Source: Clostridiaceae bacterium HFYG-1003 (lineage in GTDB: Bacteria > Bacillota > Clostridia > Clostridiales > Clostridiaceae). From it: a stretch of 64,000 bases of DNA. Every line of letters begins with the position of its first letter. Position 1 is the first letter of the stretch. A program made the position numbers and the translations under genes. The stretch spans positions 1,302,001-1,366,000 of the forward strand of contig CP102060.1 of the NCBI GenBank assembly GCA_024579835.1, in the 5' to 3' direction. Below, in pieces: positions 24,355-33,200 of the stretch. The notes beneath the pieces were generated by a model. That model saw nothing but the letters and a program-made list of their open reading frames with translations, had not been told where the DNA came from and made no database searches.

Positions 24355-25671
24355 TTAGTGCTCATAGGGCAGACCGAATCTCTGCCGCATGGTGCGCCGC
24401 ATGTCACCCACCATATAGAGGGAACCGGACGCGATGACATAACCGTCATCCGGACATTGCCGCAGCGCGCTGGACAGCGCCGTGTCGTATTCCTCTTCCC
24501 AGGTTACGTGGTCATTGAATGTATGAATGTATTGATAGAGATCCTGTGCCAGAGAAGCCCGGGTAGAATTGGGGGTCACGCAGATCACAGCGTTCGCGTC
24601 GCGGGCAATCAGATCCGCCATCTGATGGGTATCCTTATCGGCCAGAATTCCAAGGATCAGAATATAAGGGCGGTCCGGATAGTAAAAATTCAGCGAATTC
24701 TTGAGCTGCCGGATGCCATCGACATTATGAGCTCCGTCAATGATCACCAGCGGATCATGGTTCATGATCTCAAAGCGCCCCATCCAATGGACCGTCTCCA
24801 CTGCTTCGGCGACCAGATCCGGCAACAAATTCAGGCCCGCGACCTGAGAAAGCCGATACAGAGCCGACACCGCCAGCAGGGAATTGACCTGCTGATGCAC
24901 GCCCAGGAGGCGCAGGTTCGCTTCAAAGTCCCAGGTTCCGGCTTCATAACGCACTCGCTGAACCCCTGTTTCCTCGGCAAAGCCAAGGAATGAGACGTGA
25001 TTTGGATCGACAAATTCAATCGGGCTCTCCATGAGCCGGGCCCGTTCCATAATCACCCGCTCCGCTTCAGGCAGCTGCGGATAGGCCACCACCGGCACCC
25101 CGCGTTTGATGATGCCGGCCTTGGCCTGAGCGATTTCGCCAATGGTGTTTCCCAGCACATTCATGTGGTCAAAGCTGATGGAAGTTATTATCGACAGCAG
25201 CGGTGAAACCACGTTGGTGGAATCCAGATCGCCGCCCAAACCGACTTCGATCACGCAGAAATCCGGCTGCTTTGCCTGAAAATACAGAAACATGACCGTG
25301 GTGATGATCTCAAATTCCGTCGGATGCTCCAAGCCTTCCGCAACGCACTCGGCCACGGCTCCCGCGACTTTTTCCGTATAGAAGGCCAGATCGGCATCGT
25401 CAATATTCTTCCGGTTAATCTGGATTCGTTCATTAAATTCTTCGATATAGGGCGAGATATACAATCCAACGGTATACCCGTGCTTCATCAGCACTTCCGA
25501 GGTGATGGCAGCCACCGACCCCTTTCCGTTGGTTCCGGCGATATGGATCACTCGCAGATCCAGATGCGGATTTCCCAACTTGCTGAGCATACATTCCATG
25601 CGGGACAGTCCCAGGTTCTGGCCAAATTTCTGGGTCCCGGTGATGAAGGCCATTGCTTCTTTAATATCCAT
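24355..25671 (-). CDS. folC: Folylpolyglutamate/dihydrofolate synthase
   Basis: FolC adds glutamate to folates and in many bacteria also makes dihydrofolate. The protein of about 438 residues has the P-loop I-A-G-T-N-G-K-G-S-V-A, S-P-Y-I-E-E-F-N-E-R-I, the Mg-binding E-V-G-L-G-G-D-L-D-S-T-N-V and the C-terminal Mur-ligase domain (D-G-A-H-N-V-D-G). Of two in-frame ATGs, the one ending at 25671 sits 10 bases after GGAG; the first (25680) is too close. It links functionally to pabABC in this window and is probably co-transcribed with serS. Confidence 0.96.
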   Translation of the reverse strand: MDIKEAMAFITGTQKFGQNLGLSRMECMLSKLGNPHLDLRVIHIAGTNGKGSVAAITSEVLMKHGYTVGLYISPYIEEFNERIQINRKNIDDADLAFYTEKVAGAVAECVAEGLEHPTEFEIITTVMFLYFQAKQPDFCVIEVGLGGDLDSTNVVSPLLSIITSISFDHMNVLGNTIGEIAQAKAGIIKRGVPVVAYPQLPEAERVIMERARLMESPIEFVDPNHVSFLGFAEETGVQRVRYEAGTWDFEANLRLLGVHQQVNSLLAVSALYRLSQVAGLNLLPDLVAEAVETVHWMGRFEIMNHDPLVIIDGAHNVDGIRQLKNSLNFYYPDRPYILILGILADKDTHQMADLIARDANAVICVTPNSTRASLAQDLYQYIHTFNDHVTWEEEYDTALSSALRQCPDDGYVIASGSLYMVGDMRRTMRQRFGLPYEH

Positions 25672-25734
25672 AGTACTCATACTCCGAATGCACGATCCGA
25701 TTTTCTGATTCGGTTCGTTTGATATAGTCTATTT

Positions 25735-25797: not shown

Positions 25798-26370
25798 CTA
25801 CCGGGCGCTGTAATCACCCTGACGATCGCGTCCCGGGGAGACTCTGACTTCATTCTTCAGGATGCCATAGCAGACGAGATCCAGATATGCCCCGTCCTTT
25901 TTCACAGCCTGCCGGAGCACGCCCTCCTGCTTCATCCCCGCCTTCTCCATCACCCGGCCGGAAGCCTTGTTCCAAGAGAAATGCCTGGCAATGACGCGGT
26001 GAACACCCTGGGTCAGAGCAAACTCGATCACCCGCTTCAGGCTTTCCGTCATATAGCCCTGCCCCCAGTAAGTTCGATCCAGCCAGTAGCCGGCTTCTGT
26101 TTCATCATGCCGGTTGAACGGCGACAGGCCGATCACTCCGATAAACTTCCCCGATTCCTTCAGACAGATCGCGAAATCATGTCCGGCCCGCCCTTCGCGG
26201 CGGCTGGTTTCAATCGTTCCCAGCCACGCCAGGGCATGATCTCTGGTATAGGGCCGGGGGATCAGCAAGGTGTTCTGATAGATCTGCGGGTCCTGGCAAA
26301 TTCTGGTGATTTCCTCGATGTCGCCCTCGCATACGGGGCGGAGCAGCAGACGTTCCGTCATCAGCTCCAT
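25798..26370 (-). CDS. GNAT acetyltransferase (RimJ/RimL type)
   Basis: The 190-residue protein begins with E-L-M-T-E-R-L-L-L-R-P-V and has the acyl-CoA-binding region and G-Y-W-L-D-R-x-Y-W-G-Q-G-Y-M-T-E core typical of N-acetyltransferases related to ribosomal-protein and antibiotic acetylases. The substrate is unknown. Its start lies 1 base after the valS stop, so it is the last gene of the valS unit. Confidence 0.9.
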   Translation of the reverse strand: MELMTERLLLRPVCEGDIEEITRICQDPQIYQNTLLIPRPYTRDHALAWLGTIETSRREGRAGHDFAICLKESGKFIGVIGLSPFNRHDETEAGYWLDRTYWGQGYMTESLKRVIEFALTQGVHRVIARHFSWNKASGRVMEKAGMKQEGVLRQAVKKDGAYLDLVCYGILKNEVRVSPGRDRQGDYSAR

Positions 26371-26371
26371 G

Positions 26372-29026
26372 TTACAGCACCAGCGTTTCGTCGTAACTCT
26401 TCTGGGTTTTCGCCAGCAGATCGCGATACTGCTCCAATTTGACCCGTTCCTCGGTAATTACTTTCTCCGGCGCTTTGGCCACAAATTTCTCATTGGAGAG
26501 CTTGCCTTCAATCCGGCTGACTTCTCCCTGATATTTTTTAATTTCCTTGCCCAGACGCTCCAGTTCCTTTTCCTTGTCGATCAGATCAAGCAGGGGCAGG
26601 AAGATTTCTCCGCCCGGGGTGACCAGAGTGACCGTATCGGCCAGTCCTTCCTTGGACTCCACTAAAATCACTTCACTGGCAAAACCCAGCCGTTCCAGGT
26701 AGGCACCGCTCTGCCCAAAGGCTTCTCTGGCGTCTGCTGCCGGTAGAATGTAGGTCTTGGCTTTGCGGCCGGGATGAACGTTCATTTCCTGCCGAATCGT
26801 CCGGATTGACTTGATGGCAGCAATGATATGGTCCATATGACGGGCTTCCTCCCCGAAGGAGAAGCGATCTTCATAAATGGGCCAGGCTGCCAGCGTGATG
26901 GTTTCCTCTCCGGTCAGATGGGTATAGATTTCCTCGGTGATAAAGGGCATGACCGGATGGAGCAGCTTTAATCCATCCGACAGCACCTTGACCAGAACGT
27001 TCATGGTGACGCCTTTGGCCTTTTCATCGGCTCCGGTGAACGCAGTCTTGCTCAGTTCGATGTACCAGTCACAGAATTCAGTCCACAGGAAGTCATAAAC
27101 TTTCTGGAGTGCGATTCCGATTTCAAAGCGTTCCAGGTTTTCGCTGACTTCGCGGATCACTTCATTGTTGCGATGCAGAATCCACTGATCCGCCAGAGAA
27201 TATTCCTCACAGTCCTCATACCGCTTCATCAGGTCGGCATCCAGGTTCATCATGGCGAACCGTGATGCGTTCCAGATCTTATTGGCAAAGTTACGGGCTG
27301 ATTCCACCTTGTCGTCGTTGTAGCGAATGTCATTGCCCGGAGCATTGCCGGTAACGAGCATGTAGCGCAGCGCATCCGCGCCGTACTGGTCAATGACATC
27401 CAGCGGATCAATGCCGTTGCCCAACGACTTGCTCATCTTGCGGCCCTGCTCGTCACGGACGATGCCATGGAACAGAACGGTATCAAAGGGCTTTTTGCCC
27501 ATGTTGTGCAGTCCGGAGAAGATCATGCGGGCCACCCAGAAGAAGATGATGTCATAGCCAGTCACCAGGGTGCTGGTGGGATAGAAGTAATCCAGATCCG
27601 GAGTCTGTTCCGGCCAGCCTAAGGTTGAGAACGGCCACAGAGCGGATGAGAACCAGGTATCCAGGACATCCTCATCCTGACGCAGGCGCTCGCTCCGGCA
27701 GGAAGGACAGTAGTCCGGAGTTTCCTCCGCGGCAATGACCTCACCGCAGGTCTCGCAGTACCAGACGGGAATCTGATGTCCCCACCACAGCTGACGCGAG
27801 ATGCACCAGTCCTGAATGTTTTCCATCCAGTTGTAATAGGTCTTCTCCATTCGTTCGGGAATGAACTGAATCTCCTTGGTGCGAACCGCGTCGATGGCCG
27901 GCTGGGCCAGCGGTTCCATTTTGACGTACCACTGGTTGGAAATCATGGGTTCAATGGTCGTGCCGCAACGGTCGTGGGTTGATACATTGTGCACGATGTC
28001 CCGGGTTTTGAGCAGCAGTCCCCGCGCCTGCAAATCGTTCAAAATGGCTTCTCTGGCCGCATAGCGGTCCAGTCCCTGATAAGCGTAGCCCTTTTCGTTG
28101 ATCCGGCCTTCCTCATCCATCATGACGATCTCCTGAAGACCATGGCGCAGCCCGACCTGGTAGTCATTGGGATCGTGGGCCGGCGTGATCTTGACGCAGC
28201 CCGTACCAAAGTCCATGTCCACATAGGAATCCGCGATGACCGGAATCTCCCGGTCCGTCAGCGGCAGCCGGATCGTCTTTCCGACCAGGTGACGGAACCG
28301 TTCATCTTCCGGATGAACCGCCACGGCCGTATCCCCCAGCATCGTCTCAGGACGCGTGGTGGCAATTTCCAGATAGCCGGAGCCATCGGTGAATGGGTAC
28401 TTGATGTGCCAGAAATGGCCGTTTCTTTCCTCATACTGCATTTCTGCATCGGAAATCGCGGTCAGGCACTTGGGGCACCAGTTGGTTATCCGCTGGCCGC
28501 GGTAGATCAGTCCCTCGTTGTACAGCTTGACAAAGGTGTGCCGCACGGCCCGGGACAGATTTTCATCCATGGTAAAGGCTTCTCTGGAATAATCCACCGA
28601 GCAGCCCAGCCGGTCCAGCTGACCCTTAATCTTTTCGCGGTATTCTTTCGCCCAGTCCCAGGTGTACTCCAGGAACTTCTCCCGGCCGATTTCTGATTTC
28701 ACAATCCCTTTGGCCAGAAGTTCATTCTCGACTTTCACTTCGGTAGCGATGGACGCATGATCCTGGCCTGGCAGCCACAGCGTGGAGTATCCCTGCATCC
28801 GGCGGAACCGGATCAGTATATCCTGCAGTGCATTGTCCAGGGCATGGCCCATATGAAGCTTGCCGGTAATATTAGGCGGCGGCATGACAATGGTATATGG
28901 TTTCTTCTCCGGGTCAACGGTCGGGGTAAAATAGCCCGCCTCCAGCCAGGTTTTGGTCAGTCGTTCTTCAAATTGCCTGGGATCATAGGTTGTTGCCAGA
29001 TCCGTTTTCATGCGTTTGTCTTCCAT
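26372..29026 (-). CDS. valS: Valyl-tRNA synthetase
   Basis: ValS charges tRNA-Val and edits mischarged Thr. The 884-residue protein is full length, with the class I motifs H-M-G-H (after P-P-P-N-I-T-G-K-L) and K-M-S-K-S, the CP1 editing domain, a zinc-type C-x2-C ... C-x2-C segment (C-E-T-C, C-P-S-C), the anticodon-binding domain, and the C-terminal coiled coil (about 820-880). The start follows GGAAGG. It lies 162 bases after a small hydrolase that carries the Val T-box, so its control is inferred to pass through that gene. Confidence 0.97.
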   Translation of the reverse strand: MEDKRMKTDLATTYDPRQFEERLTKTWLEAGYFTPTVDPEKKPYTIVMPPPNITGKLHMGHALDNALQDILIRFRRMQGYSTLWLPGQDHASIATEVKVENELLAKGIVKSEIGREKFLEYTWDWAKEYREKIKGQLDRLGCSVDYSREAFTMDENLSRAVRHTFVKLYNEGLIYRGQRITNWCPKCLTAISDAEMQYEERNGHFWHIKYPFTDGSGYLEIATTRPETMLGDTAVAVHPEDERFRHLVGKTIRLPLTDREIPVIADSYVDMDFGTGCVKITPAHDPNDYQVGLRHGLQEIVMMDEEGRINEKGYAYQGLDRYAAREAILNDLQARGLLLKTRDIVHNVSTHDRCGTTIEPMISNQWYVKMEPLAQPAIDAVRTKEIQFIPERMEKTYYNWMENIQDWCISRQLWWGHQIPVWYCETCGEVIAAEETPDYCPSCRSERLRQDEDVLDTWFSSALWPFSTLGWPEQTPDLDYFYPTSTLVTGYDIIFFWVARMIFSGLHNMGKKPFDTVLFHGIVRDEQGRKMSKSLGNGIDPLDVIDQYGADALRYMLVTGNAPGNDIRYNDDKVESARNFANKIWNASRFAMMNLDADLMKRYEDCEEYSLADQWILHRNNEVIREVSENLERFEIGIALQKVYDFLWTEFCDWYIELSKTAFTGADEKAKGVTMNVLVKVLSDGLKLLHPVMPFITEEIYTHLTGEETITLAAWPIYEDRFSFGEEARHMDHIIAAIKSIRTIRQEMNVHPGRKAKTYILPAADAREAFGQSGAYLERLGFASEVILVESKEGLADTVTLVTPGGEIFLPLLDLIDKEKELERLGKEIKKYQGEVSRIEGKLSNEKFVAKAPEKVITEERVKLEQYRDLLAKTQKSYDETLVL

Positions 29027-29188
29027 CTTTTATCATCCTTCCTTCAGGCAATCTGTTCGAACCGCCCCGATTCAGCAGAATCCTGCTGAATTGACGGCTT
29101 CGCGACTCCTGTTTCAAAAATTTGTACTTTAAAACCAGTTGCAGTGTCTTGGGTTCATGGTTCGCTGATGCCTCATCAGCCAGGCCGC

Positions 29189-29821
29189 TTATTCGATAAA
29201 CCGGCCAATCTCTTCCAGTACATCTGAAAGAATCCGAACTGATTCCGAAATGGTGCCGGCGTTGAGGCTGTGGTCAGCTCCCGGATAAACCTTGAGCCTG
29301 GAAGCCGCCTCGCCGAGGGTTTCCAGGGCCTTCTCATGATCGAGCAGGTGGTCTTCGCTGCCGGTGAAGGCCATGAAGTTGATGATCCCGATCTGAAGGG
29401 CCATGGTGTCCACCATCTGGTCAATGGGCGTCAGATAGACGCAGCGGACCGGCTGATTCTGGCGCTGCGCGGCGTCCGAGGCAAACAGTGCTCCCACGCT
29501 TTTCCCCAGAAAGACCAGGTCGCCGCTTCGATCTTCTCCGGTCAGAACCTCGTCCACGACACCTGACACCAGATTTCCCATAGCATGCCTGGTGCGCTCA
29601 TTCAGACTGAATTCGCCGTAGGACAGAATCAGCAGATTGTATCCTTTTTGCATCGCCAGACGGGTGGCATAATACAGCAGCGGTTTGTCAACTGTATAAC
29701 CCTTCCCCGGGAAAAGGACACACAGGCCTCTTGAGTCTGGATTTTCCAGCAAGGTGCAGTTGATCTTCAAATCCTGGTATTCTGATTGGATAATCCGCCG
29801 TTCGACTTTTTCTTCTTTCAT
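29189..29821 (-). CDS. Small alpha/beta hydrolase under a Val T-box
   Basis: The 210-residue protein shows an alpha/beta-hydrolase pattern: G-L-C-V-L-F-P-G-K-G-Y early, the nucleophile elbow G-K-S-V-G (Ser108), acidic G-S-E-D (Asp157) and G-A-D-H-S (His184). No signal peptide or lid is visible, so it is a small cytoplasmic member and the substrate is unknown. ATG at 29821 follows GGGGAGGAG. It is the first gene after a T-box leader whose specifier reads GUA (Val) and lies ahead of valS. A role linked to valine status, for example on Val-derived or misacylated molecules, is only a guess. Confidence 0.82.
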   Translation of the reverse strand: MKEEKVERRIIQSEYQDLKINCTLLENPDSRGLCVLFPGKGYTVDKPLLYYATRLAMQKGYNLLILSYGEFSLNERTRHAMGNLVSGVVDEVLTGEDRSGDLVFLGKSVGALFASDAAQRQNQPVRCVYLTPIDQMVDTMALQIGIINFMAFTGSEDHLLDHEKALETLGEAASRLKVYPGADHSLNAGTISESVRILSDVLEEIGRFIE

Positions 29822-29850
29822 CGGTTGCTCCTCCCCAAAAAAATTAAAAT

Positions 29851-29885
29851 AAAAAAGGGCCTTCGTCACATAAGGACGAAGACCC
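29851..29885 (-). terminator. Attenuator terminator of the Val T-box
   Basis: GGGTCTTCGTC/GACGAAGGCCC (11 bp, one G-T pair) with a 7-nt loop is followed by TTTTTTATTTT on the minus strand. Confidence 0.85.
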
Positions 29886-30075
29886 GCGGTACCACCTTAA
29901 TTCCCACCTGAGATGGGCTCTCATCAGATAACGGTCATCCGGACCGTTCCCGGTTACTAAGTTTTCTCCGGGACAGCTCGAAAAGCTACCTTCCGTTCCT
30001 TTCCCCTGTCGATCTTTCAGCCTTGGATCGATTCTCTGCAAAGGGTCCCCGAACATACTCCTCTTTTCTATATGC
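29857..30075 (-). promoter_or_regulatory. T-box leader, predicted tRNA-Val specifier GUA
   Basis: On the minus strand the T-box AAGGTGGTACCGCG lies at 29898-29885 and the AGTA motif at 30059-30056. After the 3' Stem I arm GAAC comes GAA-G and then GTA (29989-29987), in the same position as UUC in the pheS leader of this window. GTA is a Val codon. The terminator stem (29885-29875 with 29867-29857) ends in TTTTTT. The leader precedes the hydrolase gene and, 633 codon bases plus 162 bases later, valS. Confidence 0.9.
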
Positions 30076-30216
30076 GCTTTTGCTATTCAGTTCATGGAGC
30101 CGTCTGCTTCATGGAATAAAGATCCCTGCATCACTGGGTTTCACGAATCAGAATCTCAATGATTCAGAGCCGCAATGAATCAGAATCGCAAAGGATCCGT
30201 CATCATCGGTGATGGA

Positions 30217-33200
30217 TTAGTTATCTTCAATGAGGCTATTATAGCCTTCTTTGGCTAAAACTTCAACCAGGCGGCTGCCGACTTTTTGGGTCAGGCTCGG
30301 ATTGAGTTCAATGATTTCCTTCCCCGCCAGGTTCTTAAACGCTACCGACAGCATCAGCTTAATCCGATTGAGCTGGTTGACCTCCGACGCGCCTGGATCA
30401 TAGTCGATGGCCGCGATATTGGCTTCGGGGTGAATTTCCCGCAGCTTCTTGATCATGCCCTTTCCTGTAACATGATTCGGGAGGCAGGCAAAGGGCTGCA
30501 TGCAGATAATATTGTGGACGCCTTCATGCAGCAGTTCCAGCATTTCACCGGTCAGGAACCAGCCTTCTCCGGTCATGTTGCCCAGCTGCAGGATTGGTTC
30601 GGTCTTTTTCGCCAGATCATAGATTGAGGCCGGCGGGTAAAACCGATTGGACGTTTTCAGGGCCTTCTTCATCGCCTTGCGGAAGAACTCAATACCGGCA
30701 ATGCCGGCATGTCCGCCCAGGGCCGAAGTCATGGAGCCTCCCAGGTACTTATGCTTGTAGTCGGAATCCAGTGCGGAATAGAGGAAGAAATCCATCAGAT
30801 CCGGCATTACGGCTTCCGCCCCTTCGCTTTCGATAATGTCTACCACTGAATTATTCGCCGTCGGGTGGAACTTGACAAGGATTTCCCCTACCAGTCCAAC
30901 CTTTGGCTTCACCAGATTTTCATGGATCGGGAATTCATCGAAGTCTTTTACGATGGCCTTGCAGTTGCGTTCGTATTCCAGGAAACTGCCCTTTTTCAGG
31001 CTCCGGATGCAGCGGTTGACCCAGTGGTCATAGAGGGCGTTGGCTGAACCGGCGACCTTCTCATAAGGCCGGACCTTATACAGCACCCGCATCAGCAGAT
31101 CGCCGTAGATCAGTCCCTGAGCGGCTCGGGACAGCGTGGGCAGATCAAACGCCATGCCCGGATGGCTTTCAAATCCCTGAACCGAGAGTGGAACGCAGGG
31201 TACATTGGCAAACCCGGCATCGCGCAGCGCTTTGCGGATGAAGGCCACATAGTTGGTGGCACGGCAGCCGCCGCCGGTCTGGGTGATGACCACTGTCGTG
31301 TTGTCCAGGTCATATTCACCGGACTGCAGCGCATTGATCAGCTGGCCCGTGACCAGGATGCTGGGATAACAGGCGTCATTATTGACATACTTCAGACCCG
31401 CTTCGACCGCACCTTTGTCGACTTCAGGCAGCAGAACGACCCGGAATCCGGAATACTGGAGAGCAGCCTCGACAAACTGGAGGTGTATGGGTGAAAGCTG
31501 AGGTGAAATAATGGTATGCTGCCTTTTCATTTCTTTGGTGAACGTGATGGGGGTACAGTCAATCGCTTCGGGTACCGGTACGTACTGATTGCGCTGACGC
31601 TCTTCCATGGCTGCCTTGAGCGACCGGATCCGAATGCGGGCCGCGCCCAGATTGTTGCCTTCATCGATTTTCAGGCAGGTGTAGATCTTGCCGACGCCGG
31701 AGAGGATCTCCTGAACCTGGTCGGTCGTCACTGCATCCAGCCCGCAGCCGAAGGAGTTGAGCTGAACCAGTTCCAGGTCCTCCCGGGCGCTGACCACAGA
31801 GGCGGCGTGGTAGAGCCGGGAATGGTAGGTCCACTGATCCACGACCCGAAGCTGCCGCTCCTCGGTCTGGTCCAGATGGCAGATGGAATCTTCGCTCAGC
31901 ACCGCCATGCCAAAGGAGGTAATCACCTCCGGGATGCCGTGGTGCACTTCCGGATCAACATGGTAAGGCCGTCCGCCCAGAACAATGCCTTTGATCTGGT
32001 GTTTGCGGAGATATTCCAGGGTTTCTTCGCCAAACCGGCGAATGTCGGCCTTATACGCATCGCGTTCGGCAAAGCCTTTGCGGCAGGCCGCTTCCCATTC
32101 TGACAGGGAGATATCGCACCGGTTCTTGAAGATCTGATACAGCCGGCGAGCCAGTTTGTCGCGGTCACCAATGTTCAGGAACGGGTTCAGGAAGGGAATG
32201 GAGCTTTCCTTGAGATTGTCCACGTTGTTCTTAATGACTTCCGGATAGGAGGTCACAATGGGGCAGTTGTAGAAATTGTCAGCTCCCTTGAATTCCTTTT
32301 CCTCAAAGGGAATGCAGGGATAGAAGATGAGATCCGGCTTTTTTCGAATCAGCCACTCAATGTGACCATGCACCAGTTTCCCGGGATAGCAGACCGATTC
32401 CGAAGGAATGGTCTCAATGCCCATCTCATAGAGCTGTTTGGACGACTGGGGCGAGAGCAGCACCGAAAAGCCCAGATCCGTCAGAACCGTATGCCAGAAG
32501 GGATAATTCTCGTACAGGTTCAGCACCCGTGGAATGCCGATGACGCCGCGTCGGGCCTCCTCTTTCTTCAATGGCTTATAGTATTTGAAGGTTCGTTCAA
32601 ATTTATAGGCAAAGGCGTTGGGAATGGTGGATTTCTCCAGGTTTCCCAACGGACGCTCACACCGGTTGCCCGAAATGAACTGCTTCCCGCCGGTAAATTT
32701 ATTGATCGTAAGCTGACAGTTGTTGGCACACAGGCCGCAGCGGCGAAGATCCGTTTCATAGCTGAACTGTTCGATATCGGACCGGCTCCGCAGGGTCGAT
32801 TGGTGGCCTTCCTCAAACCGTTCCCGGGCAATCAAAGCAGCTCCATAGGCGCCCATGAGGCCGGCAATGTCCGGGCGCACGGCCTGCACACCCGAAACCA
32901 GTTCAAAGGCCCGCAGTACGGCATCATTATGGAATGTACCGCCCTGAACGATGATCTTCTCCCCCATTTCTTTGGGGTTGCGAATCTTAATAACTTTATA
33001 CAGGGCATTCTTAATAACCGAGTAGGACAGTCCTGCGGAGATGTCGCCCACGCTGGCTCCCTCTTTCTGGGCCTGTTTGACCCGGGAGTTCATGAACACC
33101 GTGCAGCGCGTTCCCAGATCCACCGGGGCGCGGCTGGTCAAAGCTTCCCCTGCGAAGCCCTGCGGCGTGGTATTGAGTCCCCGGGCAAAGGTCTCGATGA

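Follow-up and report, generated by a model that had tools for sequence, protein, structure and literature searches.

Why does the first gene behind a Val T-box encode a small hydrolase, with valS only in second place? The question is raised by the window analyzed here, a stretch of 64,000 nucleotides from Clostridiaceae bacterium HFYG-1003 (G000:C1:1302001-1366000; the source genome is a single contig of 3.4 Mb), in which the features of the locus lie on the minus strand. As far as sequence comparison can tell, the T-box probably controls a common hydrolase-valS message, and the hydrolase was probably gained in the ancestor of the genus and kept there by selection, presumably as a cytosolic serine esterase or thioesterase that shares the control of valS.

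The original prediction had placed a T-box leader upstream of the hydrolase gene, and a covariance-model search supports this. The T-box model RF00230 is matched by cmscan over its full length (1-219) with 106.9 bits (E 1.2e-22), which is above the gathering cut-off of 93, and no second Rfam match was obtained between 25000 and 36000 (E<=1). The leader spans 29869..30081, so that its start had wrongly been put at 30075 instead of 30081. cmscan aligns GAAGGUAG as the final eight unpaired bases of the specifier loop, which ends in GAA-G-GUA-G. By the rule given for TBDB, the specifier is formed by bases 2-4 counted from the loop end, and the codon is therefore GUA (Val) at 29989-29987 (29987..29989), in agreement with the earlier reading; the structure-based alignment did not yield a specifier for another amino acid. 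The antiterminator bulge UGGU (29891..29894) is complementary to the ACCA end of tRNA-Val(UAC), a tRNA that the source genome encodes with discriminator A according to ARAGORN (which covered 22 of 30 fetched tRNA loci; the genome holds 52 tRNA matches). By its score, its Val specifier, and the fit of the UGGN bulge to the tRNA 3' end, the element is a Val T-box. The terminator scan places its intrinsic terminator, a strong one of 11 pairs and then a T run, at 29857..29885, and a Shine-Dalgarno-like GGGGAGGAG (29828..29836) is located ahead of the hydrolase ATG. Some 150 nt upstream of the leader, a promoter-like TTGAAG-17-TATAAT (30238..30266; 10/12 in a consensus scan) overlaps the final coding part of the previous ORF. 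That ORF is separated from the T-box by about 135 nt (30082-30216) with short GATTCTGATTC-like repeats, a stretch that is almost missing in one of the congeners introduced below (G002).

The GAA-G context had also been noted for the pheS leader of the window, and it is indeed found there (GAAGUUCA, with UUC as codon; 2254-2469, 88.0 bits, under the RF00230 cut-off). In the leaders of trpP-like, leuS-like, and asnA-like genes (named by eye), the codon is shifted from the GAA-N-codon position; this shortcut is thus not universal in the source genome, which is why the structure-based specifier reading matters. One leader (L020), read as GUU by the naive rule, was rejected as a second Val T-box, as its downstream gene is asnA-like and AAC fits. 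Further T-boxes of this genome precede a tryptophanase/tyrosine phenol-lyase-like gene (named by eye; G000:C1:2142637-2142919; possibly UAC, Tyr), an amidinotransferase-like gene (named by eye; G000:C1:2728583-2728827; possibly AGA, Arg), and, as two tandem elements that both read AUG by eye, a metN-like ABC transporter gene (G000:C1:2906083-2906607). Behind another T-box match (G000:C1:2115983-2116242), the next ORF of at least 70 aa is nucleoside-deaminase-like and starts about 550 nt on.

As had been predicted, the first gene behind the Val T-box encodes a small α/β hydrolase (29189..29821; ATG at 29821, stop ending at 29189; 210 aa), and the translation confirms the triad Ser108/Asp157/His184, with S108 in a GKSVG nucleophile elbow. 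All three residues are kept in the three congeners; among 21 aligned homologues, the Ser is found in 19, the Asp in all 21, and the His in 20. The nucleophile is replaced in two of these homologues, once by Cys (GKCLG) and once by Gly (SKGIG; loci L074 and L076), and the Gly homologue also carries Arg for His; the genome of L074 has three hydrolase copies with equal scores. The homologue alignment further reveals motifs of the hydrolase's own, an N-terminal PGxxYxxDKPLLYY and the elbow KSxG. Pfam returned only sub-threshold α/β hydrolase matches for the window's protein (for example, a partial and weak one to serine aminopeptidase S33, PF12146, with 21.2 bits against a cut-off of 27), and NCBIfam returned none. 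An AlphaFold model built from a three-sequence alignment (pLDDT 71.9, pTM 0.71) gave 233 PDB matches at E<=0.001, and those among the matches listed are hydrolases of the same fold, mostly esterases, dienelactone hydrolases, and lipases, together with peptidases such as acylaminoacyl-peptidase and dipeptidyl peptidase IV. The best Z scores, all to PDB α/β hydrolases, lie close together at about 11-12, with a maximum of 12.4, and the model resembles small lidless serine hydrolases, feruloyl esterases, and dienelactone hydrolases. Triad, elbow, and predicted fold thus assign the protein to the α/β hydrolase superfamily, the modeled fold being that of a generic lidless esterase. No hydrophobic segment fit for a signal or a membrane helix is present, and none of the families matched in Pfam, NCBIfam, and the PDB ties the protein to aminoacyl-tRNA.

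valS (26372..29026) starts 162 nt after the hydrolase stop, and its identity is borne out by the NCBIfam valine--tRNA ligase models (TIGR00422 with 1151 bits and NF004349 with 1240 bits). A GNAT acetyltransferase gene (25798..26370; PF13302, E 5e-37) adjoins the end of valS, and folC (24355..25680; TIGR01499, 369 bits) lies further downstream; the GNAT gene follows valS in G002 and is absent from G001. The order T-box, hydrolase, valS is kept in all three genomes of the genus that were examined, namely the source genome, G001 (matching LQGW01000052, Clostridiaceae bacterium JG1575), and G002 (matching JAAZGI010000045, Clostridium sp. MAG, with valS divided between two contigs), and a contig scan with the hydrolase alignment A1 returned only these two congeners. 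Their T-boxes score 83.6 bits (G001, below gathering) and 105.4 bits (G002), and both carry the specifier GUC, again Val, with a third base that differs from the GUA of the window. The gene ahead of the T-box is common to the congeners. By eye, G001 has a TTGACA-16-TATAAT directly ahead of the T-box, and G002 has a TTGATG-TATAAT pair inside the coding end of the same previous ORF. The hydrolases of the two congeners share 60% and 51% identity with the window's protein and their ValRS 84% and 76%, so the hydrolase diverges faster and is not under the same constraint. Its pN of 0.24-0.37 against a saturated pS of 0.75-0.82 indicates that it is under purifying selection in the genus.

Outside the genus, the arrangement was not found. 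A hydrolase search in 39 relatives gave matches in seven genomes. Three of these belong to the genus; the other four are distant, with matches of 26-29% identity whose neighboring genes look unrelated by eye. The hydrolase is missing ahead of valS in all 33 valS loci that were examined in other genera (19 from the same family, 12 and 2 from two other families of the order). The T-box core was detected by motif search upstream of valS in 28 of 30 loci of relatives (of the other two, L047 lies at a contig end and L056 has none), and cmscan found a T-box with a GUA specifier in 3/3 further relative valS loci; the regular expression for the core is imperfect, as one script missed L062, where cmscan finds a T-box. 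Relatives outside the genus thus have valS behind a T-box without the hydrolase. Across the class, a homologue of the hydrolase at E<=1e-8 is encoded in 17 of 391 genomes, one of which is the source genome. Hydrolase-synthetase pairs beyond the genus were looked for and discarded, since none of 18 distant homologue loci has a T-box and 16 loci have no synthetase gene beside the homologue (by eye, 1.5 kb flanks). The neighborhood check thus finds the hydrolase-valS pair in 3/3 genomes of the genus and at none of the other loci covered.

The position between T-box and valS is occupied by a different gene in many other Clostridia, one for a two-helix membrane protein that often stands behind a Val T-box. 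Ten of the 12 family f2 loci have a small ORF there, and when 80 further valS upstream regions across the class were fetched (113 in all), a profile search found an adjacent small membrane protein in 49 of them, 31 with a T-box core motif (44 of the ORFs are in the model and match by construction); in L114 and L146, beyond these 49, the distance to valS is somewhat greater. When whole genomes were searched with alignment A4 (many of its members stem from these genomes), the protein was located in 51 of 148 class genomes, once in each, and in 46 of the 48 genomes with a listed valS it is encoded directly upstream of valS on the same strand, at a distance of 29-188 nt. The proteins have about 50-97 aa (members include L093, L094, L100, L113, L135, and L139) and share an invariant K-x-x-G (30/30 aligned); two hydrophobic segments are present in 25 of the 30, and the other five look shortened by the choice of start. 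With cmscan, 19 of 20 valS-slot loci tested have a T-box, and the four alignments listed have the specifiers GUA, GUA, GUC, and GUC. The exception, L172, is not a member: there, a T-box core motif is followed by a NUDIX-like gene and then by valS, and this gene was dropped as a candidate, as cmscan finds no T-box. In L049 (G006), the slot holds a short ORF with a GNAT-like start and then an early stop, as if it were a decayed insert. Pfam and NCBIfam families each match at most three of the 30 small membrane proteins, and none of them matches well; there is no PDB sequence match either. In the 148-genome sample, the protein is absent from the window's genome and five others of its family.

The survey associates an unnamed family of small membrane proteins with valS in roughly one third of the clostridial genomes sampled, and the valS operon seems to carry exchangeable partner genes, the hydrolase in this genus and the small membrane protein in many other Clostridia. 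For cyanobacteria, a CAAD domain that has two transmembrane helices is described as keeping ValRS at the thylakoid (PMC4893482). By analogy, the slot might be a recurrent site for partners of ValRS, where the membrane protein would tether the enzyme like a detached CAAD anchor and the hydrolase of the genus would serve ValRS in another way, a reading to which we give a rather low probability. Should the small membrane protein bind ValRS, the attachment of a bacterial synthetase to the membrane, known from cyanobacteria, could be put to the test in anaerobes.

It had also been suggested that the hydrolase acts in the quality control of aminoacylation. In such a role, it might cleave aminoacyl esters or editing by-products (e.g., thiolactones) arising when ValRS acts on near-cognates. 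This would fit its position and shared control with valS in 3/3 congeners and its esterase-type triad, and valyl esters are known substrates of some α/β hydrolases (valacyclovirase/BPHL). However, the ValRS stretches TTRPET and KITPAHDPND, which we take to belong to the editing site or domain, are preserved without change in the three congeners, and the relatives compared keep them completely or almost so; defective ValRS editing as the reason for the hydrolase was therefore discarded as well. Moreover, the position is confined to one genus, no homologue occurs near valS or a T-box elsewhere in the class loci searched, and the Pfam, NCBIfam, and PDB searches match general esterases and hydrolases and no family with such a role. 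Quality control is therefore an unlikely function of the hydrolase.

Another possibility is that valS is mainly driven by a promoter of its own, while the T-box serves the hydrolase. The 162-nt gap between the two genes (29027..29188) would be long enough in the window's species and is longer than in the congeners, but scans of its minus strand for promoters, terminators, and Rfam elements found nothing promoter-like, terminator-like, or T-box-like; neither a separate promoter nor a T-box ahead of valS, either of which would have spoken against the predicted control, thus came to light. In the congeners, the gap is only about 40 and 70 nt long (by eye), too short to leave room for another T-box, and a Val T-box directly precedes valS in relatives. 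A separate valS promoter as the main driver is thus very unlikely. The gap can fold into a stable hairpin of about nine pairs without a T run, which might cut or separate the hydrolase-valS message. Because both congeners keep the order, a Val specifier, and short gaps, co-transcription of hydrolase and valS under control of the Val T-box is, judged from sequence, very likely.

A contribution to valine supply, the other role originally proposed (e.g., the cutting of peptides or esters that releases valine), is very improbable, as the common control of supply genes by T-boxes noted in PMC2494555 and the weak PF12146 match are set against the lack of a signal- or membrane-helix-like segment, an operon with neither transporter nor biosynthesis genes, mostly esterases, dienelactone hydrolases, and lipases besides some peptidases among the PDB matches listed, a position specific to one genus, and distant relatives of which 0/18 lie near T-boxes.

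We favor the hydrolase as a co-regulated accessory or passenger gene that represents a genus-level gain in a known kind of operon, because no matched family points to aminoacyl-tRNA and the ValRS editing stretches are intact. It is well known that T-boxes permit read-through upon binding of uncharged tRNA. Here, uncharged tRNA-Val would base-pair twice with the leader, through its anticodon at the GUA specifier and through its free ACCA end at the UGGU bulge, upon which the antiterminator would form and RNA polymerase would read through into the hydrolase gene and then valS. The transcriptional Val T-box would thus control a polycistronic hydrolase-valS unit, followed in the source genome by GNAT and folC. 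In the genus ancestor, the hydrolase gene would have come to lie downstream of the T-box terminator and ahead of valS, and selection would keep it for a presumed cytosolic serine esterase or thioesterase activity. T-box specifiers serve to guess the function of unknown genes; the hydrolase suggests that a gene may come first behind a Val T-box without having to concern valine, since a gene gained ahead of valS inherits the switch.

In fold and length, the hydrolase is comparable to ATU1826 (2i3d), XC6422 (2fuk), and 3trd (Z of 12.4, 11.4, and 12.0 over 178-183 residues), but the identity is only 13-14% and the window's protein has its own PGxxYxxDKPLLYY and KSxG motifs. Abhydrolase_11 (PF20408) is matched at E<=0.01 by three out of seven aligned homologues, whereas the window's protein itself stays below the cut-off (16 bits against 27). 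The literature searched (titles and beginnings of abstracts) contained no case of a hydrolase gene that separates valS from its Val T-box, and within that literature the hydrolase appears to be a new occupant of the slot. Table 2 of PMC2494555 lists the streptococcal genes spr0489 and str0474, of unknown function, behind a Val T-box as "Val-tRNA ligase related". Like the window's hydrolase, they are Val T-box-regulated genes, a likeness by description alone that gives no indication of a hydrolase, and this kind of arrangement is therefore, as far as that table goes, already known. The closest counterparts are the valS-folC T-box operons of Firmicutes (RF00230), which likewise consist of a transcriptional Val T-box, a terminator, valS, and then folC, and from which the window differs by the hydrolase gene inserted between terminator and valS.
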